DNA of 35,636 nucleotides from a virus. The notes beneath the pieces were generated by a model, which saw only the letters and a list, made by a program, of their open reading frames with translations, did not search any database and was not told where the DNA came from. A program made the position numbers and the translations under genes. The stretch is taken from the IMG/VR virus record IMGVR_UViG_3300022188_000029, positions 1 through 35,636 of that record. One strand, given 5' to 3'. This document shows positions 1,345 to 16,859 of the stretch, piece after piece; the stretch's first letter is position 1, and each line of letters opens with the position of its first letter.

Positions 1345-1761
1345 ATGATGAAGAAATTTAAAGTTTTAAAAGAAGGCGACGATTGTGGACAAAGTTTTAG
1401 TGTTGATGAGAAGTATGTTGTAACAAAGAAGGCGTGTTGTGTGAGGGGTGTTGGTTACGACGACAGTTGTTTATGGCCCGAGGAGTGTTTGTTTGAGGAG
1501 ACTGGGGAGTGTTTATGCCCGGAGGACATGTATTGGACCCCGACGAGCCGCGTGTTGGTCACGTGTGTTGAGTATCCGAAATGCGACATTGTTGTAAACG
1601 ATGTGCGGACCGACGATGTGGTTGTTGAGGTTGAGGAGGTTGAGGTGGCAGTTGGTTGGGACGACTTAGACGAGGACCTGGAGCCTTATGTGGAGACGCC
1701 GCCGGTTGGTTTTGGTGCCATAAAAGCCCTTAAAAACGTATGGCGGTGTGTTGCCGCGTAG
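1345..1761 (+). CDS. Cysteine-rich hypothetical protein, paralogue of the next gene
   Basis: This 138-residue protein is of no family I recognise. The N-terminal half is rich in cysteine (CC, DDSC, EEC, CLC), which suggests metal binding or disulphides. The C-terminal half is acidic and valine-rich (a VVVEVEEVEV run). Residues of about 20-50 resemble the gene at 1973: both have a TKKAC motif followed by a D-S/D-C and an E/D-C cluster, so the two look like diverged duplicates. The gene is clearly GC-richer, with G/C-ending codons (gag, gtg, ccg, gac), than its AT-rich neighbours, which suggests a different history. Two adjacent ATG codons are possible starts; the ribosome binding site is TTAGGAGAAA. 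Confidence 0.65.
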   Translation: MMKKFKVLKEGDDCGQSFSVDEKYVVTKKACCVRGVGYDDSCLWPEECLFEETGECLCPEDMYWTPTSRVLVTCVEYPKCDIVVNDVRTDDVVVEVEEVEVAVGWDDLDEDLEPYVETPPVGFGAIKALKNVWRCVAA

Positions 1762-1775
1762 TCGTATAAAGTGTT

Positions 1776-1839
1776 GCCGGGGGGACGCCCATATATGGAC
1801 GCCGCCCCCGGCCCCTTAGAGGGGCGAGTGTTATGCCCC
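1776..1839 (+). ncRNA. Structured intergenic RNA element, copy A
   Basis: A strong GC-rich fold lies directly after the preceding stop codon. Stem I pairs 1776-1783 (GCCGGGGG) with 1805-1812 (CCCCCGGC). Stem II pairs 1811-1816 (GCCCCT) with 1820-1825 (AGGGGC). Stem III is an alternative pairing of GGGGC at 1821-1825 with GCCCC at 1835-1839, and it cannot form together with stem II. The same arrangement with different bases recurs at 2404-2466. There is no U-run after the stems, so a simple intrinsic terminator is unlikely. A switch, an antitermination (put-like) site or a processing signal is possible. Confidence 0.5.
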
Positions 1840-1972
1840 GTATTAGAAAAAGTATCGTATATTATATTGGAGAAAGTATTGTACCTCGATTTTTAGAGTA
1901 TCGTATATCGATTTTCGAGAGACAAAAAGTATCGTGTATGCAAATAAAATAAAATAAACAGGAGATTAAAAA

Positions 1973-2395
1973 ATGAGTAAAATTAGAAAGTTTAAAATAT
2001 ATGACCATACAGTTAAAGAAGAAATAATTATCGGATTTGATGAAAGCGAAATAAAGACAAAAAAGGCGTGTGAAGCGAATGAAAATTATGGTCATAGTGA
2101 TTGTACTGTCGCAGATTGTTATGCTCTGAAAAACAAACATAGTGATTTTTTTGAAGACATGCGAAAAGTATTGGCATTAGAAGATTTTTTGAAAGAAAAC
2201 AATATAAATTGTGGTTACGAGCTAAGTGGTTATGTTGAAGACAGCGAGTATGATGAAAACATTGACATTATAGAAGTTAAAGAGTATATGAAATTACATG
2301 AGTACCACCCGACAATTATTTATGCAGAGTATAAAGGGTATGATTTGATTTTAGAAGACAAACGTTACGACATTGTTGTTGAAGAAGTGTATTAA
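1973..2395 (+). CDS. Hypothetical early protein, paralogue of the gene at 1345
   Basis: This 140-residue acidic protein has no recognised family. It shares with the gene at 1345 the N-terminal pattern of an acidic strand, TKKAC, then a cysteine after H-S-D and a D-C pair (residues of about 25-50). The rest is rich in D, E, Y and I and looks like a mixed alpha/beta small domain without signal peptide or membrane segment. The start ATG follows AACAGGAGATTAAAAA. The flanking intergenic DNA on both sides carries the structured elements and AAAGTAT(C/T)G repeats, so gene and element appear to have been duplicated together. Codon use is AT-rich, unlike the GC-rich paralogue. Confidence 0.65.
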   Translation: MSKIRKFKIYDHTVKEEIIIGFDESEIKTKKACEANENYGHSDCTVADCYALKNKHSDFFEDMRKVLALEDFLKENNINCGYELSGYVEDSEYDENIDIIEVKEYMKLHEYHPTIIYAEYKGYDLILEDKRYDIVVEEVY

Positions 2396-2403
2396 ATTAA
2401 ATT

Positions 2404-2466
2404 GCCGGTGTGGGCGTCATATAGATGCCTCGCCGGCCCCCTAGAGGGTGAAGAGTATTATGCCCT
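2404..2466 (+). ncRNA. Structured intergenic RNA element, copy B
   Basis: This is a second copy of the fold at 1776-1839. Stem I pairs GCCGG 2404-2408 with CCGGC 2433-2437. An inner stem pairs GGCGTC 2413-2418 with GATGCC 2424-2429 around an ATATA loop. Stem II pairs CCC 2439-2441 with GGG 2446-2448. The alternative stem III pairs AGGG 2445-2448 with CCCT 2463-2466. The primary sequence differs from copy A, yet the order of stems and the alternative pairing persist, which supports selection on structure. Confidence 0.5.
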
Positions 2467-2570
2467 ATGTTAGCAAAAGTATCCTATTCATTATATTGGA
2501 GAAAGTATCGTATATCGATTTTTTAAAAGCGAAAAAGTATTGTACTATTAAATTAGAAGGAGCAAAAATT

Positions 2571-2984
2571 ATGGACATGACGATGAGAAATGAGTTAGAA
2601 AATGAATTAGAAATGAAAATGACAGACAAATTAAAAGTTATGAAATTAAAGAAAGAAGAGTTGTTAGATGAATTATGTAACATGTACGTAGAAAAAGGCG
2701 GAGTAACCTCAAAAGTATCGGACAGGTTATGTAACGCGTGTTTAGAAGAGAAAAGAATAAACGCAGAGTTAGTAGAAATGAGAAATGAGAAAAAGGAGCA
2801 CGAAAAAGAAGTGTTAGAAAAAATAATGAGAGAATTAAGTATTAAAGAGTCTGACGCAGAATATGAAGGAGTAAGTAGTTTTACCGATGAAAGGGGGGTA
2901 GGACATCACACCTTTAAATATATTGAAAAAGAAGAAGAAGTTTATAAGGGACAATTACAGAAACAATTAGAGGAGTGGAAGTAA
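2571..2984 (+). CDS. Coiled-coil hypothetical protein
   Basis: This 137-residue protein is unrecognised. Residues of about 3-40 and 55-100 are dense in E, K, L and M with heptad-like spacing and are predicted as coiled coil. Two cysteines (around the RLCNAC segment) lie between them. The C-terminus is again charged. I chose ATG 2571 because AGAAGGAG lies nine bases upstream. An in-frame extension upstream to 2448 is open but runs through the repeat DNA (AAAGTAT(C/T)G copies) and lacks a ribosome binding site, so it is probably not translated. It is followed by a gap with four more repeat copies before the HNH gene. Confidence 0.65.
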   Translation: MDMTMRNELENELEMKMTDKLKVMKLKKEELLDELCNMYVEKGGVTSKVSDRLCNACLEEKRINAELVEMRNEKKEHEKEVLEKIMRELSIKESDAEYEGVSSFTDERGVGHHTFKYIEKEEEVYKGQLQKQLEEWK

Positions 2985-3132
2985 ACGAGAAAGTATCGGG
3001 GTATGTGTCCGAGCAAAAGACGTGTACCTCGATTTTTTAAAAACGAAAAAGTATCGTGCTCGTATTGGTGAAAGTATTGTATTCTATATTAGAAAAAGTA
3101 TCGTAAATGAAAATATAAAGGAGTAATTTATT

Positions 3133-3678
3133 ATGGAAACAAAAAGAAAAGTAGGACGTCCCAAAGGCCATAAATTATCTGACGAATCGAAGGCTAAAAT
3201 ATCGGCTAGTAAAACAGGGTATAAACACGACGAAGCCACCAAAAAGAAAATAACTGAAAGCGTGTTAAATTATTACGAAAGTATCGGTTATGAAAAAAAA
3301 ACAAATGAAACTATTTGTGAAGGCTGTGGTAAAGTATTCATTAGCAAAAATAAATATATACCAAGACACTTCTGTGATGTCTGCTTACCGATTATGATGA
3401 ATAATAAAGGTGGAACATATAAAAAAGCACGTGGTAAAATTCAAAGAAAAAAACCATATCGGGAGTGGAGGGAGAAAGTATTGGCACGTGATAATCATAC
3501 GTGTGTTATGTGTAATAAAAAAGGAAACAGCGTACATCATTTAATCGATTTACTAGAAATTATAGATAAACCTGAAGTATTGTATGACGTAAATGTAGGA
3601 GTAACAATCTGCCGGAAATGCCATAATAAAATTCATTGGGAGGAGAAGTTAGAGAAATGTGCAGCAACAATCGAATAA
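3133..3678 (+). CDS. HNH homing-type endonuclease with NUMOD3-like N-terminus
   Basis: The protein has 181 residues. The N-terminus (about 7-45) has the pattern GRPKGHKLSDESKAKISAS and then a second K-H-D-E-x-T-K-K-K copy, as in NUMOD3 DNA-binding repeats of homing endonucleases. Residues of about 60-85 form a zinc-ribbon-like CEGC...CDVC module. The C-terminal HNH domain follows: REWREKVLARDNHTCVMC, VHHL and an ICRKCHNKIH end, giving two CxxC pairs and the HH and H residues for metal and catalysis. It probably nicks or cuts DNA as a free-standing mobile endonuclease. The start has AAAGGAG upstream. The zinc module is shared with the HNH protein at 5476. Confidence 0.85.
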   Translation: METKRKVGRPKGHKLSDESKAKISASKTGYKHDEATKKKITESVLNYYESIGYEKKTNETICEGCGKVFISKNKYIPRHFCDVCLPIMMNNKGGTYKKARGKIQRKKPYREWREKVLARDNHTCVMCNKKGNSVHHLIDLLEIIDKPEVLYDVNVGVTICRKCHNKIHWEEKLEKCAATIE

Positions 3679-3689
3679 TGGGAGACAGT

Positions 3690-3866
3690 ATGTCAAAAAG
3701 TATGGTAGTGTCTAAAAAAATAACAGTTGCAAAATATTTGGACAAGCTAAGTTTAACCGAGCATTTAGTATTGTTAAGGAAGTTAACAGAGTTAATTATT
3801 GAGGAGGAAGAAAACAATGGCCGACATCCTAACAGAGGAAGAACTAATCGAAATACTAGGGGTTAA
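3690..3866 (+). CDS. Small hypothetical protein overlapping the next gene
   Basis: This is a 58-residue basic protein with no recognised family. I chose ATG 3690 because GGGAG lies six bases upstream; the frame is also open further upstream, inside the end of the HNH gene. Residues of about 10-45 look helical (AKYLDKLSLTEHLVLLRKL), ending in an E-rich run and a basic R/N/G tail. The last 50 bases overlap the helix-turn-helix gene at 3817, and the E-rich run (GAGGAGGAA) is that gene's ribosome binding site, so the tail may be shaped by the overlap. Translational coupling with the next gene is likely. Confidence 0.5.
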   Translation: MSKSMVVSKKITVAKYLDKLSLTEHLVLLRKLTELIIEEEENNGRHPNRGRTNRNTRG

Positions 3867-4002
3867 TAAAATAATTATAGCTAAATATAGAAAAGCAGGA
3901 TTAGCATTTTGTAGACTATCGAAAACAGAAAGAGTATATATTGTGAAAGATATTTTGGATTTTATAGTGGAGAGAAGAATACGGGTCAGTGATGATTCGT
4001 AG
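3817..4002 (+). CDS. Small helix-turn-helix DNA-binding protein (excisionase/MerR-like)
   Basis: This 61-residue protein has the layout of small helix-turn-helix proteins: LTEEELIEILGV-NKIIIAKYRKAGLAFCRL then ERVYIVKDILDFI. This is the helix, turn, recognition helix, beta-hairpin wing and final helix seen in excisionase-type and MerR-like DNA binders. I chose ATG 3817 since GAGGAGGAAGAAAACA precedes it. It would bind DNA as a small regulator or as an architectural protein. With no integrase visible in the window, an excisionase role cannot be argued, and a transcriptional role is more likely. Family assignment is by pattern only. Confidence 0.65.
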   Translation: MADILTEEELIEILGVNKIIIAKYRKAGLAFCRLSKTERVYIVKDILDFIVERRIRVSDDS

Positions 4003-4385: not shown

Positions 4386-4442
4386 TAAGGCGACGACGGT
4401 TATAAAGGGTAGGTGTGCCTATGAGACACCTGCCCCGCCTTA
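4386..4442 (+). ncRNA. Strong two-stem structured leader before the winged-helix gene
   Basis: The outer stem TAAGGCG 4386-4392 pairs with CGCCTTA 4436-4442. The inner ten-pair stem 4407-4416 pairs with 4426-4435 with one G-U pair, around a nine-base loop. On the 3' side the two stems abut, while 14 unpaired bases lie on the 5' side. The structure ends 25 bases before the start codon of the next gene, so it lies in its leader. It is not followed by a U-run. It may control translation or mark an origin-like site. Confidence 0.5.
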
Positions 4443-4467
4443 AATAACTACATAGGAGATAATAATA

Positions 4468-5127
4468 ATGATGGAATATGAACACTGGTTACGATACCAC
4501 GATAGAGATGATGGGAATTGGTCGAAAGAGTGTTATGAAAAAGAATATAAGACCAAAACTAAAGAGATTGAAAGTTATGAGGAGTTTATCGAGAAACATT
4601 CATATCTCGATAATACACATGGTAAAAAACAGTATGATGAGTATTTGCAGAGTCAAAACAAACAAATAAGAAAAGGACGAAAGGATGAAAAGAAAAAAGC
4701 TAGCGAGAATACTAATTTATTTAGACGGGAAGCAGGACATAAGAAATTAAATTTAAATGGATCAGTGAGGTTTGAGATGGGAATTTTATCAAAGAAAGGA
4801 TTTCAAGACGCAATGAATGTTTCACCTATATTATTCCTGTATATTAGAGATAAAGCAGTGAAGTCTATAAAACAAGAAGATCCCCTTCGTTTGTATTATC
4901 ATTACTATACTAAACAGAAAAAAATAGCATGGCAGGGGAATATATCTATGTTAGCGGAGATATTCAATATAACTAAACCGACAGCATTTAGAGCATTTAA
5001 AAAGTGGGTCGATATGGGAGCAATTAAAAAAGAGAAGTGCTCAGTTGAAGGGTATAAAGATAAAGTTATATATATTGTTGGAGAGGTTAATGATGCAGGA
5101 CAAAACAAATTTTATACCGATGATTAG
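4468..5127 (+). CDS. Winged-helix DNA-binding protein, possible replication initiator
   Basis: This 219-residue protein has two parts. Residues 1-85 are very charged (E, K, Y, D) and probably helical or disordered. Residues of about 130-208 look like a winged helix: a helix around YYHYYTKQKKIAWQGN, then NISMLAEIFNITKPTAFRAFKKWVDMGAIKKE (helix, turn, recognition helix, helix) and a beta hairpin ending IYIVGEV. This layout is common in phage and plasmid replication initiators and in DnaD-like or Rep-like proteins, but no catalytic motif is visible and it could equally be a regulator. The start follows CATAGGAGATAATAATA. It is the only candidate replication protein in the window. Confidence 0.55.
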   Translation: MMEYEHWLRYHDRDDGNWSKECYEKEYKTKTKEIESYEEFIEKHSYLDNTHGKKQYDEYLQSQNKQIRKGRKDEKKKASENTNLFRREAGHKKLNLNGSVRFEMGILSKKGFQDAMNVSPILFLYIRDKAVKSIKQEDPLRLYYHYYTKQKKIAWQGNISMLAEIFNITKPTAFRAFKKWVDMGAIKKEKCSVEGYKDKVIYIVGEVNDAGQNKFYTDD

Positions 5128-5371: not shown

Positions 5372-5475
5372 TAGTATTGAGAAAGCCGTCCTTACTAAAA
5401 GAAACGGCCTGGAAGAACGATAAAATATCTTTAACATAATAATAATTGTTACGCTAAATTAATAGGAGATTGATA
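5372..5475 (+). other. Intergenic segment with small hairpin
   Basis: No gene is seen. GCCGT 5385-5389 can pair with ACGGC 5404-5408, a weak stem. The segment after it is AT-rich and leads into the ribosome binding site of the next HNH gene. I do not find a convincing promoter here. Confidence 0.3.
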
Positions 5476-6096
5476 ATGGACATTTATGAGCTTATAGAAC
5501 GCAAACAAGAGGCGGAAAACAGGATAGATTTATTTATAAATAGTTTACTAACTAAACCTAATATCTCAGGAGATGATATAGAGACTATTAAATTTTTATA
5601 CCATGATGGTTATATACAATTTAGATATATAAAGGAGGCTCTTGGGTTCAGTCACCACAAAACTCTTGACTTACTTAAAAAAGACGCTGAGTCTATATGT
5701 GAAGGTTGTGGTGAGATTTTCATATACAAAAGAAACAAAACAACTCAAGCTCCTAGATTATGTGATGGGTGTGAGGTGTCTCAACAAAAAATAACGGAGA
5801 AGGAGGATTCAGAATATTCGAAGCGTTGGGATATGGAGAATGAAATTAGACAGGCTAATTATAAAATTAGACGAAAAGAATTAGATGATATGACATATAA
5901 AGAGTATTTACAAACACCTGAATGGAAAGAAATAAGGACTAGAGCATATAGAAGGGCTGGGTTTACTTGTGCACTTTGTAATAATGGCGGCCAATTAAAT
6001 TGCCATCATAGAAATTATACACGAAGGGGGCACGAGCGTCCAAACGACTTGATAGTTTTATGTGAGGACTGCCACCAAAGACACCACGGTCATTAA
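5476..6096 (+). CDS. HNH endonuclease with zinc-ribbon module
   Basis: From ATG 5476 (TAGGAGATTGATA upstream) the protein has 206 residues; a TTG two codons earlier is less likely. Residues of about 45-70 suggest a small helix-turn-helix (FRYIKEALGFSHHKTLDLL). Residues 75-99 form a CEGC...CDGC zinc ribbon, nearly the same as in the HNH protein at 3133. The C-terminus is a classical HNH domain: EYLQTPEWKEIRTRAYRRAG, CALC, CHH, LIVLCEDCHQRHH, with paired zinc cysteines and the catalytic histidines. It is expected to cleave DNA; the isolated position in the early operon suits a free-standing homing endonuclease. Confidence 0.88.
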   Translation: MDIYELIERKQEAENRIDLFINSLLTKPNISGDDIETIKFLYHDGYIQFRYIKEALGFSHHKTLDLLKKDAESICEGCGEIFIYKRNKTTQAPRLCDGCEVSQQKITEKEDSEYSKRWDMENEIRQANYKIRRKELDDMTYKEYLQTPEWKEIRTRAYRRAGFTCALCNNGGQLNCHHRNYTRRGHERPNDLIVLCEDCHQRHHGH

Positions 6097-6156: not shown

Positions 6157-6426
6157 ATGAAAAAAGCAACGGTTTACAAGGTTAAATATATAAGTGATGT
6201 TAGAATAATTAATGACGGTACAGGTTGGTGGGCAGTAGCAGGAGACATTTGTGATCATTTAGGTTACAGTGATTGTGACAAAACCTTATCAGAGCATGTT
6301 GAAGATGAGGATAAAGACCGTGTTGTGATTCTGAATGATGATGGCAGTTTAGAAAAAGTGAGTATAATAACCGAGTGGGCCGCACAACTCTTACATAAGA
6401 TAAAGCAGGATTTAAAAGAGAAATAG
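6157..6426 (+). CDS. Short BRO-N domain protein
   Basis: This 89-residue protein matches the BRO-N/phage antirepressor N-terminal pattern: VRIINDGTGWWAVAGDICDHLGY, then a helix and EHVEDEDKDRVVI. BRO-N domains bind DNA and occur at the start of phage antirepressors. Here the usual end of the domain (the ESGLYRL-type strand and the KFRRWV helix) and the C-terminal effector domain are missing, as the sequence ends in a charged helix (LLHKIKQDLKEK). It is therefore a short or truncated member. The start has AGGGGG upstream. A second, broken BRO-N start lies at 7461 on the other strand. Confidence 0.75.
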   Translation: MKKATVYKVKYISDVRIINDGTGWWAVAGDICDHLGYSDCDKTLSEHVEDEDKDRVVILNDDGSLEKVSIITEWAAQLLHKIKQDLKEK

Positions 6427-6458: not shown

Positions 6459-6929
6459 ATGAAACACGAATACAGCTTTGAAGATATTTATTATAAAACA
6501 GCATTTCTAAGAAGACGTGTCGCTTATTTAGCTGATTTATCTTATTACAGCGTTGACGACGTAAAACAAGACCTTAGATTGGCTATTTTAGAGCAACAAC
6601 CAAATGTTAGTGATTTTAAAGAGCTAAGAAAGTTTTTAACGGCGGTACTAAGAAAAATGATTAATAAAAATACTATTGAAAATAAAGTTATTGATGATGA
6701 TATAGATATCGATAGACTAGGTAGTGAAGAGATAGTAGAAGTAGGTGATAGTATTGATACAGAAATAATAGACAAACTTAAAGAGTTATTAGGAGAAGAT
6801 GATTACGATTCTATGATTAATTATAGAAGTTTAGCCGCTGCAGCAAGAGATAAGAATTTAAATTATAATATATTACAGAAAAGAATTCAAAGAAAGAAAA
6901 ACCTAAGTAAACAATTGTTATCGTTATAA
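6459..6929 (+). CDS. Sigma-factor-like regulator, candidate late-gene activator
   Basis: The 156-residue protein has two regions like a small sigma-70 family protein. Residues of about 8-75 resemble region 2: a helix with RRRVAYLADLSYYSVDDVKQ then DLRLAILEQ, an F-x-E-L-R-K-F-L helix and a basic KMINKN stretch. After an acidic linker (DDDIDIDRL...), residues of about 110-150 resemble region 4, with AAAARDKNLNYNILQKRIQRKK as a helix-turn-helix. It is the last gene of the early operon and faces the late block, a typical place for a late transcription activator. The ribosome binding site AAGGAGGGG is very strong. The assignment is by pattern; no strict motif proves it. Confidence 0.5.
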   Translation: MKHEYSFEDIYYKTAFLRRRVAYLADLSYYSVDDVKQDLRLAILEQQPNVSDFKELRKFLTAVLRKMINKNTIENKVIDDDIDIDRLGSEEIVEVGDSIDTEIIDKLKELLGEDDYDSMINYRSLAAAARDKNLNYNILQKRIQRKKNLSKQLLSL

Positions 6930-6935
6930 ATAATA

Positions 6936-6982
6936 TATAGTACAGTACACTAGTATTAGTATTAGTATCGTACTGTACTATA
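6936..6982. terminator. Bidirectional terminator-like inverted repeat between convergent operons
   Basis: A perfect 13-bp inverted repeat pairs 6936-6948 (TATAGTACAGTAC) with 6970-6982 (GTACTGTACTATA) around a 21-base loop containing tandem TAGTAT units. It sits between the last rightward gene (stop 6929) and the first leftward one (stop 6994), where transcripts collide. No long U-run follows on either strand, so it may end transcription only weakly or bind a protein. Confidence 0.55.
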
Positions 6983-6993
6983 GTATTATAGTA

Positions 6994-7275
6994 TCATATA
7001 CAGTTAGTTAACTTGTATCCGTCTTTTCTATATTTCTTGATGAAGTGTTTTTCTAGTTTACGTGCTTTCTTTCTAGTGTTAGTTTTACGTATAGTAACCA
7101 TTTTAAAAGCGATACCGTTATTCATTAACCTCCTGGCCTTTTTATATTTAGGTAATTGGTTACCGTGTAATATAGCTTCTTTATGCTCTCTCTGTCTTCT
7201 TACTATATTATTTGTTTGTCCTACATAGTAAGGTCTGTTTCTGTTGTCTATGAATTTGTAAATGGAGTATATCAT
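6994..7275 (-). CDS. GIY-YIG family endonuclease
   Basis: This 93-residue protein is almost entirely a GIY-YIG nuclease domain: IYSIYKFIDNRNRPYYVGQT gives the two tyrosine strands, NIVRRQREH gives the conserved arginine and the following helix, and a C-terminal LEKHFIKKY supplies the conserved glutamate. This family makes single- or double-strand cuts, and stand-alone phage members usually are mobile or homing endonucleases. ATG 7275 is preceded by AAAGGAGATTAG. The gene overlaps the end of the zinc-ribbon frame at 7208. It is the last gene of the leftward block before the convergent terminator. Confidence 0.85.
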   Translation of the reverse strand: MIYSIYKFIDNRNRPYYVGQTNNIVRRQREHKEAILHGNQLPKYKKARRLMNNGIAFKMVTIRKTNTRKKARKLEKHFIKKYRKDGYKLTNCI

Positions 7276-8200: not shown

Positions 8201-8770
8201 TCATATAGTGTAACAATGTTCTCTATAAATTTTTATAAAATCACATAAGAATGACCACTTAACGACTATAAAAGAATTATTATCTACTGTGTTCTTATTG
8301 ATATAAACACTGTTCTTATAATTAGTGGATAAACTATTATTGTGTTTAAAAGCTGCCACCTTCTCATATAGAGCCTTTGTTTCAATAGCAGCGATAGATA
8401 TTAATTTATTGCTACCAAGATCAACATAAGCCTGACTCGTCCATTTTGGATAAACACCGTCCACAGCTATTTCATGTATTCTTTTTATATACTCTGTTTC
8501 AGAACCATTTGCCCTTTTATATCTGATTGTAAATGTATCCCATGATTTTTGAGTTGGTTGTATTCTACTTGCTATACCATACTTTTTACTATTTATGTTT
8601 TGTATTAAATCATATCCATATTTGATATCTAATAGTGTTATATTACTACTATCTTTTTCAAGAGAATATATTTTGCCGCCGATCAATCTTTCTAAAGGCT
8701 CTCTGATCAACCCAAAACTATTAGCAGCGTTCTTAAAATCAATATCAAAGCTGTTGTTTTTTGTACTCAT
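8201..8770 (-). CDS. Hypothetical protein, possible nuclease-like partner of the methyltransferase
   Basis: The 189-residue protein starts at ATG 8770 (AGAGGTGTTAACT upstream) and overlaps the end of the methyltransferase gene by 26 bases, so the two are translated together. The segment KYGYDLIQNINSKKYGIASR followed by IQ and TFTIRYKR has the look of a conserved D...(E/Q)-x-(K/R) core of PD-(D/E)xK nucleases, and an AAIETKALYE motif lies near residues 150-160. I do not recognise the family for sure. If it is a nuclease, the pair could be a restriction-modification unit; it may also be a partner that guides or controls the methyltransferase. Confidence 0.5.
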   Translation of the reverse strand: MSTKNNSFDIDFKNAANSFGLIREPLERLIGGKIYSLEKDSSNITLLDIKYGYDLIQNINSKKYGIASRIQPTQKSWDTFTIRYKRANGSETEYIKRIHEIAVDGVYPKWTSQAYVDLGSNKLISIAAIETKALYEKVAAFKHNNSLSTNYKNSVYINKNTVDNNSFIVVKWSFLCDFIKIYREHCYTI

Positions 8771-9983
8771 AGTTAACACCTCTTTTAACTGCTATATCAA
8801 TCATATCCTGATCTATTTCACAACCAACTGCAAATCTACCTAACTTAGTAGCGGCTACTAATGATGTACCAGTACCAGCAAAGCAATCGAAAACAGTGTC
8901 ACCCTTCTTAGTTGTATGCCTGATTAAACGCTCCAACAAAGGTAAAGGTTTCTGCCACATATGATGACGATTATTTTGACGACCATCGGGAGCGTTAACA
9001 TCATGCACTGCCCATAACTCATTTGTTATTGAGCAATTTAATTCAGGAGCTTTCGGCATTCTGTAATACAAAATAGCCTGCCAATTTAATTTATATTTAT
9101 TCTTTGGAGATTTACCTAATGTATTTCTGTAAGTCCACACCAATACTTGTGTAGGCATCGCTACATTTAAATAAGCGTTTAACTCTTCTGGATAAGCACC
9201 TACAAAAATAAAAGCAGAACCTGTTTCTTTCACATAAGATAACTTTTCTGGTAGCCATTTAACAAACTCATTTATGTCATCTATATCAGTAGAATATGGG
9301 GGATCAGTTATTAACAAATCACATACTGTACTAAAACTCTCATAAGATGACTTGAATAATCGTGACTCAATTATATCGTTTGTGTATTCTTCTGCTACCT
9401 CTGCTTCTGCTGAAAGAATCTCTTTCTGTTTATCCTCATTCTTTATTTGATTGTATACTTTATTAATGGTAGTATCACCTGCTCGTAATTTATCTAAAGT
9501 TTCTTCATCAGCCACTGCTTTGATTTTCTCGATTCTACTTATAGTGTCATGAGAAATACCAGTTTTCTCTGCTATTATTTTTTTTGTATCGTGTGGTATA
9601 CATTTGTCAGAATTCTGACAAAGGTCAGTCCGTGTACCTTGTTTATCTTTACCAATCTTCGACAACAACTCCTTCATCTCCAAACCCAATTCACCTCTAA
9701 CATATGTAATTATATTTCTACGCCCAAGCTGGTTTTGTATAATCCAAAGTTTAACTTCATCAAAGGTATCGAAATCTTTTGATATTGTTTTGAATTCTAA
9801 GTTATGTTTTTTAGCAATCTTATAACGATTATGACCATCAACAAGTGTCTCACCCCAAACAATTAAAGGCTCTCTAATGCCCTCCTCTAAAACACTCTTT
9901 TCTAATAAACTAAACTCTTCGGTTGTTAAAGCCGGTATTAAATTCTCAAATTCCTCTATAACTTTTAATTCGTGTTTATCCAC
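8745..9983 (-). CDS. ParB-like domain fused to N6-adenine/N4-cytosine DNA methyltransferase
   Basis: This 412-residue fusion starts at GTG 9983 (TAGGAGGAAAC upstream). Residues of about 15-90 are a ParB-type N-terminal domain with VDGHNRY at 48-54 and GRRN at 87-90. A helix-turn-helix follows (about 131-155, KKIIAEKTGISHDTISRIEK). The C-terminal half is an amino-methyltransferase: DPPY at 227-230 and the AdoMet-binding FDCFAGTGTS at 365-374, so the catalytic motif comes before the AdoMet motif, as in the beta class. It would methylate an adenine or cytosine amino group in phage DNA, probably to resist host restriction. ParB-methyltransferase fusions are known in phages. It is preceded by a terminator-like hairpin at 10059-10100. 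Confidence 0.88.
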   Translation of the reverse strand: MDKHELKVIEEFENLIPALTTEEFSLLEKSVLEEGIREPLIVWGETLVDGHNRYKIAKKHNLEFKTISKDFDTFDEVKLWIIQNQLGRRNIITYVRGELGLEMKELLSKIGKDKQGTRTDLCQNSDKCIPHDTKKIIAEKTGISHDTISRIEKIKAVADEETLDKLRAGDTTINKVYNQIKNEDKQKEILSAEAEVAEEYTNDIIESRLFKSSYESFSTVCDLLITDPPYSTDIDDINEFVKWLPEKLSYVKETGSAFIFVGAYPEELNAYLNVAMPTQVLVWTYRNTLGKSPKNKYKLNWQAILYYRMPKAPELNCSITNELWAVHDVNAPDGRQNNRHHMWQKPLPLLERLIRHTTKKGDTVFDCFAGTGTSLVAATKLGRFAVGCEIDQDMIDIAVKRGVNYEYKKQQL

Positions 9984-14873: not shown

Positions 14874-16859
14874 TTATGTTTTAGTATAAAGATTAATAAT
14901 ATCCCAACCTTCGCCGTCATAAACAAATGTTGCTCTTTGATTTTGACCAACAGTTTGGTTAAGCCCCACAGGAGTAATAGTATAAGCCTCACCTATCTGC
15001 CAATCGTTTGAAGTACCTCCAGAAAGGTTTGCGGTTACTGTGTCCACAGTATTTGTTGTTATAATCCCAGAGCTTCCATCAGGTGTATTAGTTAATGTTC
15101 TACCTACGAGCTGTCCATCAGCCCAAGCCTCACTTGAGTCGGTTAGAATAAGTGCCCCATTAGAACCATCATGACTACCCACACTTGTAAATGTTGGATC
15201 AAATGTCAATGTTTCATCAGCATCCGCTTTATTAGTAACTGTTACCTCATAAAAAGGGTCAAAGTCATGTGCAGGATATACATTTCTATCAGTACCACCA
15301 GGATCAAGGATTAAATGTTTCCCATGCCAAAAATAAAAAACCAAACCATTAGATAAAGTTGCGGTATATCCTGAGTCATCTATCTGTTTTGCTCGGGGTT
15401 TAAATTTTTCAGGGTAACAATCAAGTAAATCACGTGCAGTAATTACTTCTGAAAAGTTTTCTTCTATCCAATCCAGAAAAGCTGAAAAATTAGTTGTGTC
15501 TGTTATAGCATGAAATACAAACTGTATTACACCACCTACTTTTTGATCTAAAAAATGTGTGGCCATTGAAGGAATAGTGTGGTCTGGGTCATCTATAGTA
15601 ATTGTTGTTGAAGGATAGAAATTAAACCTCGGGTCCATCATAATACATCCTGATTTTCTGGTCAATTCAGATAAGTATTCATTAGAGGTATACCCTGGAT
15701 TCATAAATAAACCTACATCTTTCGTCAGCCCATAGTGTTTAAAAAACAATTGCTGACCAACAAAATTATATAAGGTATCCGCCTTATTCATAGTGTCAAA
15801 CTCATTATGAGTAACACTATGATTAACAACATTGTGGCCGTTGTCCTGCATATTCTTTATATCCTCAACACTTATGTGTGATACTGAATCATTTAAAATA
15901 TAAAAAGGGCGTGTAATAGCAAAACAACCTTTCCAGTTTTTTCTGTCTAAGAAATTAGCACCTATATTCCAATGCTCATTTGAGCCGTCATCAAAACGCA
16001 GAATAGCAACATTATGTGGTTTTGTACGAATGAAACGAATGTTATCTACATATGCTGTTATCTCCTCAGAATAATCAGATCTTCGATAAAAAATCAAATA
16101 CAACCTATAAAGAGTTGTACTATCAAAAACACCTGCATCTCTAGAGAAAAAGGGGAAATATACTGTTGTTCGAACTTTACCAATATCATGGGTATAATAA
16201 TGCTCTGATGCACTAGTAACTGCACCAGTATCACCATAATACTGGGTTCTTACCCTTTCAATTTGTGAAGATTCAAATTCCATATCAATTAACATTCCTT
16301 GATATTTACTGACATCTAAGGGCCCAAAATCTTTTTTTATATAAGTATAGTCAGCGTTTTCCGTTAATTTAAAACATTCTGTTCCTTCAAAATGTTTAGT
16401 ACTGTCAAGCGAAAGTGATCCAGTTGTTGTCCACTCAGCATAGGAACTACAATCATCCCAAGAATCGACGATAAATTCTCCTGAAAGATTATTCTCAAAA
16501 ATAACCTTCACATTTCGTTTATCACTCAATACGTCAGAAGCATTCCGAACTAATGAGTAGTATTCTTTCTCATGCCCAGGCGGGACATTCACAACATATG
16601 GATTTGCAAATCCATTTTTGAGGGTGCCGTTTGCCGTGCCACAACTATCAATCACACTTTGAATTGTTACTGAATCTTCTACACGTTTAATTTGTGTGGA
16701 AGTATTAACTTTGCTATCTAATGCTGTTTGAGTTGTTGTGCTTATTGGTAATGATCCAGCAATAGCTGTATGAATAGTATTAGCATCACTTACATCAGCA
16801 AATAATAATTTATCAGCCCCAACAGGTGTTGTAGTGCTGTATTCATGGAATACTCCCAT
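14874..16859 (-). CDS. Tail-associated polysaccharide deacetylase (NodB/CE4-like)
   Basis: This 661-residue late protein carries a NodB-type deacetylase domain at about 280-480. RFDDG at 288-292 matches the TFDDG motif (base and metal aspartate), HSVTH at 347-351 supplies the two metal histidines, NPGY at 387-390 matches the third motif, and H450 in VFHAI is the likely acid. An N-terminal fibre-like part (1-55) and a jelly-roll or carbohydrate-binding-like domain (about 130-278, ending YVDNIRFI) precede it. C-terminal beta repeats follow (570-655). Its place among tail fibre genes suggests it removes acetyl groups from a host surface glycan during adsorption. The ribosome binding site is AAGGAGAAATAAATT. 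Confidence 0.8.
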   Translation of the reverse strand: MGVFHEYSTTTPVGADKLLFADVSDANTIHTAIAGSLPISTTTQTALDSKVNTSTQIKRVEDSVTIQSVIDSCGTANGTLKNGFANPYVVNVPPGHEKEYYSLVRNASDVLSDKRNVKVIFENNLSGEFIVDSWDDCSSYAEWTTTGSLSLDSTKHFEGTECFKLTENADYTYIKKDFGPLDVSKYQGMLIDMEFESSQIERVRTQYYGDTGAVTSASEHYYTHDIGKVRTTVYFPFFSRDAGVFDSTTLYRLYLIFYRRSDYSEEITAYVDNIRFIRTKPHNVAILRFDDGSNEHWNIGANFLDRKNWKGCFAITRPFYILNDSVSHISVEDIKNMQDNGHNVVNHSVTHNEFDTMNKADTLYNFVGQQLFFKHYGLTKDVGLFMNPGYTSNEYLSELTRKSGCIMMDPRFNFYPSTTITIDDPDHTIPSMATHFLDQKVGGVIQFVFHAITDTTNFSAFLDWIEENFSEVITARDLLDCYPEKFKPRAKQIDDSGYTATLSNGLVFYFWHGKHLILDPGGTDRNVYPAHDFDPFYEVTVTNKADADETLTFDPTFTSVGSHDGSNGALILTDSSEAWADGQLVGRTLTNTPDGSSGIITTNTVDTVTANLSGGTSNDWQIGEAYTITPVGLNQTVGQNQRATFVYDGEGWDIINLYTKT

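Follow-up and report, generated by a model that had tools for sequence, protein, structure and literature searches.

An oriented array of short direct repeats, with hairpins added in two spacers, in the early operon of an unclassified tailed phage

In this analysis, we have shown that the early operon of a tailed phage carries an array of short, asymmetric direct repeats (AAAGTATYG), all in one orientation, and that the G+C-rich hairpins found in two of its intergenic spacers are an addition to this larger array. The window, that is, the whole stretch of DNA that was analysed, is the 35,636-base virus record IMGVR_UViG_3300022188_000029, from an unclassified bacterial virus with lambda-like tail genes (a gpJ-type tip protein and an NlpC/P60 tail protein). 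Its structural genes run leftward, and rightward transcription of the early operon would start from a predicted, near-consensus sigma-70 promoter at 1024-1053 on the + strand (TTGACA, 16 or 18 nt, TATATT/TATTAT; 11/12 in a consensus scan). We tentatively propose, with a probability of about 0.38, that the array is bound by a phage-encoded regulator, probably a winged-helix DNA-binding protein of small size (candidate, ORF 3814-4002), and that the hairpins behind stop codons are an added mRNA-end feature. In appearance, the array is closer to a landing strip for a viral control protein than to a proven RNA switch.

AAAGTATYG occurs 17 times in the whole window, against an expectation of 1.3, and 13 of these copies fall between 1300 and 3720, where local dinucleotide shuffles give 0.12; all 13 are on the transcribed (+) strand. 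The sequence-only reading had already described AAAGTAT(C/T)G repeats, and these are real and far above chance; however, they had been undercounted, and further copies are present at 2990-3103 and inside genes. The repeat consensus is GARAAAGTATYG[T/G]. The array occupies the spacers that follow ORFs 2, 3, and 4, all on the + strand. Spacer 2 (1849-1934) has AAAGTATYG at 1849, 1873, and 1926 and AGAGTATCG at 1895; spacer 3 (2476-2542) has AAAGTATCC at 2476 and AAAGTATYG at 2502 and 2534; and spacer 4 (2990-3103) has AAAGTATYG at 2990, 3048, 3071, and 3095. Within these three spacers, the units are mostly 22 to 32 nt apart (22, 23, 24, 26, 31, and 32), with one gap of 58 nt, and the spacing shows no helical phasing. 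A degenerate unit, AAAGTATTA, lies in spacer 1 just 3' of the stop codon (1304-1312, +; PWM score, 16.2), and weaker units are found further along the operon at 6423 and 6962. When about 100 fetched loci were compared, the 8-mer AAAGTATC ranked first, bar one low-complexity coding repeat; that repeat, in locus L007, had seemed to form an analogous array and was rejected. A distant terminase relative (L072) has, at 6927-7197, seven direct GGGTAACG repeats, several of them about one helical turn apart, in an operator-like arrangement.

Four copies of AAAGTATYG are inside ORFs: AAAGTATTG at 2165 in the small ORF 1973-2395, AAAGTATCG at 2712 in ORF 2571-2984 (+), to which no family was assigned, and two at 3278 and 3475 in the HNH endonuclease ORF 3133-3678 (+). 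They use two codon phases, and only 1 of 2,000 synonymous shuffles reaches four copies. Intragenic copies of such a dense, testable array suggest selection at the nucleotide level. The spacers may be under constraint, or genes may have been swapped in and out between spacers that stayed constant; the former is favoured, since the repeat is also found inside genes.

Superimposed on the array is a duplicated, structured intergenic module, the existence of which is supported by our results. Homologous modules of about 120 nt lie at 1774-1900 and 2402-2529, each 3' of one small ORF. The elements at 1776-1839 and 2404-2466, which had been regarded as similar, are homologous both in the hairpin part (alignment score of 45 versus a shuffle maximum of 26) and in the tail (67 versus 33). 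From 5' to 3', each module consists of a G+C-rich hairpin, a CCCYTAGAGGG...TTATGCCC stretch, and an AT-rich tail that contains AAAAGTATC and ATTATATTGGAGAAAGTATYGTA and then TCGATTTTT. A shared segment had been noted after the repeats, and TTATATTGGAGAAAGTAT is indeed identical in both modules. The tails are about 85 to 90% identical, whereas the adjoining ORFs can barely be aligned.

The G+C-rich hairpins are at 1776-1812 (module 1) and 2404-2437 (module 2), both on the + strand, and few folds on either strand of the 35.6-kb window are stronger. They are followed by CCC-GGG-CCC toggles at 1812-1839 and 2437-2466 (+), in which the GGG is able to pair with either CCC, so that the mutually exclusive third stem proposed from the sequence is present in both modules (1821-1825 with 1835-1839, and 2445-2449 with 2462-2466). 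The loop of the third stem of module 1, when aligned with the repeats, is itself a degenerate repeat unit. The proposal that the stems differ in sequence while keeping their position and pairing held in part: both copies fold, but copy 1 is interrupted on the + strand, copy 2 is bulged, and opposite strands are favoured (copy 1, -33.8 kcal/mol antisense and -23.1 sense; copy 2, -24.6 kcal/mol sense and -16.2 antisense). Counted by eye, only one fully compensated pair distinguishes the copies, a change from G-C to A-U at the base of the third stem, and this stem also has one C-G to U.G change; with only two copies, covariation cannot be shown. With a model built from both copies, a third module was detected at 3065-3097 (E of 0.004, a rough value); it is partial in that only the G+C stems are missing. 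Since this partial module retains the repeats without the hairpins, it is the repeats, and not the stems, that form the common denominator. Strong folds also lie directly 3' of the early stop codons at 1761, 2395, 2984, and 4002, including a 15-bp hairpin in spacer 4 (2995-3033, +) that has four G.U pairs and is weaker on the antisense strand; three of the four post-stop hairpins tested fold better in the sense than in the antisense orientation.

The two small ORFs that precede the modules, at 1345-1761 and 1973-2395 (both +), exist as described, and their relatedness is weak but collinear: BLASTP aligns them in two pieces, in order (E of 0.003 and 0.046), and shuffled sequences reached the observed similarity in 36 of 2,000 local and 15 of 2,000 global comparisons (P of about 0.01 to 0.02). 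The TKKAC...DxC pattern is kept in both, with a second Cys 11 residues after TKKAC and a third 5 to 6 residues further on. On this sequence evidence, they are probably paralogues. Family scans matched neither ORF to a known family, and the predicted structure of ORF 1973-2395 was unusable (pLDDT of 35). ORF 1345-1761 and its hairpin have a G+C content of 0.49, and the ORF has a GC3 of 0.54, compared to 0.26 to 0.33 in the neighbouring early ORFs; this deviant base composition suggests a different origin.

If the array acts at the DNA level, a phage-encoded regulator would recognise the asymmetric repeat site, and by occupying the array it would hold back early transcription or set its timing. 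The most likely binder would be a small winged-helix protein, arranged head to tail on the DNA, such as the 62-amino-acid HTH/excisionase-like product of ORF 3814-4002 (+), which matches PHROG 1763 (E of 0.00095); its predicted structure is H-H-E-E-H (pLDDT of 62), with weak matches to Cro, BldC, and Xis structures. The link between the repeats and this ORF is suggested by position and by the weak evidence from the modelled fold. The post-stop hairpins would probably be a separate layer that protects or defines mRNA 3' ends between cistrons or slows the polymerase. We prefer a DNA-level array because the recurring unit is a fixed 9- to 12-mer and not a fold, because the repeats are no more accessible than background in the predicted RNA (0.10 versus 0.125), because the two strong folds favour opposite strands, and because the gene for a small winged-helix candidate lies next to the array, directly downstream. 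Taken together, these four grounds are not decisive.

Against the preferred reading, the unit spacing lacks helical phasing, and no repressor gene of a known type was recognised among the ORFs scanned. An RNA-level signal would also be just as likely to have a single orientation parallel to transcription, and that orientation is in part a consequence of strand composition. On the early mRNA, many GARAAAGUAUYG sites might be recognised by a small RNA or an RNA-binding protein, with the hairpins stabilising the polycistronic message or taking part in its processing (3'-end protection or RNase III type); we regard this as a real but minority possibility. Every copy is on the sense strand of one operon, and the two strongest degeneracies (R before and Y within the repeat) are those that G.U wobble would tolerate with one partner strand; however, the T/G position that follows misfits a single pairing partner, and the accessibility values given above show no excess. 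The strong folds after several early stops, and the better sense folding of most of those tested, are as this explanation would have them, but a G-rich sense strand alone predicts a sense advantage, and copy 1 is better folded antisense. A more particular form, in which an early message with more than 12 sense copies of a 9- to 12-nt motif and with post-stop hairpins acts as a sponge or multisite target that captures a small RNA or an RNA-binding protein of host or phage origin, seems improbable; if true, such an RNA address extending across the operon would differ from nut, put, and SAS. The sequence-only reading had taken the modules to look like a conserved regulatory RNA, which we could not establish: there are two copies with almost no covariation, no homologue was found, the copies favour opposite strands, and there is no Rfam match. 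Its suggestion of a put-like, cis-acting antitermination RNA is, in our judgement, very improbable. The phage HK022 put elements do resemble the elements here in having two stem-loops in about 65 to 70 nt (about 63 nt here) and two copies per phage on early transcripts (PMC9378689), and since putR lies about 270 nt from its promoter (PMC9378689), distance alone does not decide the matter. The sequences show no similarity, however, with local alignment scores of 12 to 14 against the putL/putR regions of AF069308, which is shuffle level, compared to 20 for putL against putR, and the geometry differs: the linker here, of about 8 nt and C rich, competes for the third stem. HK022 has one put element per early operon, downstream of PL and PR (PMC9378689), whereas here both copies are in one operon, after stop codons, about 720 and 1,350 nt downstream of the sole strong promoter. 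In addition, copy 1 folds poorly on the + strand, and the early operon is without a convincing intrinsic terminator to overcome, none having been found at the hairpins either.

An origin had been listed as a further option, and on this point the earlier reading fared better, in that the larger oriented array fits a protein-binding or origin-type element at least as well as a regulatory RNA. An iteron origin is conceivable because an initiator-like ORF (4468-5127, +) with a C-terminal winged helix follows the array; the repeats would then be iterons for its product, with AT-rich DNA and hairpins nearby. The direct repeats 22 to 32 nt apart and the kilobase of AT-rich repeat DNA upstream are in keeping with this explanation, but iteron origins are normally compact, the repeats here are spread over 1.6 kb, in four spacers and three genes, and the initiator assignment depends on a weak match to PHROG 8102, a replication-initiation family (E of 0.002); we consider an origin unlikely. 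About as unlikely is the suggestion that the spacers are recombination linkers, constant gene boundaries that allow early genes to be swapped, with the pattern a by-product of duplication and exchange and with no regulator involved. Such linkers would account for well-conserved tails beside genes that barely align and for the aberrant GC3 of ORF 1345-1761, but they leave unexplained the four exact intragenic copies, in two codon phases and beyond the synonymous expectation.

Oriented short repeats recur in phage early operons, and their function is only partly understood; the array described here could reveal at which level, DNA or nascent message, such arrays act. The SAS/ESAS repeats of Cluster K mycobacteriophages are short, asymmetric, and present in 11 to 19 copies among the nonstructural genes, nearly all in one orientation (PMC3203893). 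Likewise, the 13 copies here are asymmetric, share one orientation, and are confined to the nonstructural region, and in both cases a subset has an inverted repeat just upstream. Unlike SAS, which abut translation starts, the repeats here are tens of nucleotides upstream of the Shine-Dalgarno sequence, in arrays, and inside genes, and the SAS consensus GGGATAGGAGCCC has no sequence similarity to AAAGTATYG (consensus GARAAAGTATYGK). The stoperators of Cluster A mycobacteriophages are also asymmetric, oriented with transcription, and in many cases intergenic (PMC9283540), as are the units here (13 of 13 on the + strand); however, stoperators are distributed genome-wide and are bound by a known immunity repressor (PMC9283540), whereas the present array is a 2.4-kb cluster of close-set units, and the ORFs scanned in the window, a record that may be incomplete, include no recognisable repressor gene of a known type. 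Proteins of the BldC, Xis, and RdfS type bind direct repeats or form head-to-tail filaments (PMC5859096, PMC11963761), and in the case of BldC, which has a winged-helix fold, the direct repeats are AT rich and the protein occupies them head to tail (PMC5859096). The likeness lies in a directional array on AT-rich DNA with a small winged-helix protein, here the candidate binder, encoded beside it; the BldC repeats, however, are 9 bp long and nearly contiguous, while the units here are mostly 22 to 32 bp apart.

Searches for relatives of the region, in phages (DNA and protein) and plasmids (DNA), found none, and in IMG/VR either small ORF, their alignment, the initiator-like ORF, or the terminase retrieved no relatives or only distant ones. 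The terminase has at most 38% identity to GenBank phages, and its closest relatives in IMG/VR are about 39% identical over most of the length and 46% identical over a partial match. A scan for the pattern TATTGGAGAAAGTATYGTA gave four matches, none with surrounding repeats, and the pattern TAGAGGGN{2,8}AGTRTTATGCCC had no match in IMG/VR and seven in GTDB, which are chance matches, several carrying one common coding motif and none having a comparable upstream hairpin. The covariance-model check that had been proposed, with the two-copy model run over 949 kb of fetched loci, produced nothing significant. Rfam models, of riboswitches or other curated RNAs, gave nothing at gathering score in the window and nothing on the elements at E values up to 10. 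No tRNA or tmRNA was found.

Several other features of the window were observed. The noncoding kilobase upstream of the early promoter (1-1083) is AT rich; it contains several copies of GAAACAGTRWGCAGTTATAT as well as repeats of the TATAGTATAGTTATA type, which occur in either orientation. The early operon encodes two HNH endonuclease ORFs (3133-3678 and 5470-6096), in the former of which NUMOD3, a motif of homing endonucleases, gave a borderline match. The operon ends with a Bro-N (antirepressor-type) ORF (6157-6426) and with ORF 6459-6929, which weakly matches phage sigma factors. A long AT-rich hairpin (6930-6993), with AGTAT repeats in its loop, lies where the early and late operons converge and folds strongly on both strands. 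A large ORF in the tail region (14874-16859, -) contains a polysaccharide deacetylase domain, and a ParB-like/DNA methylase fusion is encoded at 8745-9983 (-), its best full-length relative being in the archaeal virus Methanoculleus virus Blf4/L4768 (34% over 95%). Finally, at 4407-4458 there is a hairpin, GGGTAGGTGT-GCCTATGAG-ACACCTGCCC, the loop of which, CCTATG (4418-4423), is complementary over 6 nt to CATAGG (4451-4456); the latter overlaps the Shine-Dalgarno sequence of the initiator-like ORF 4468-5127, and the two could possibly form a pseudoknot translation switch.
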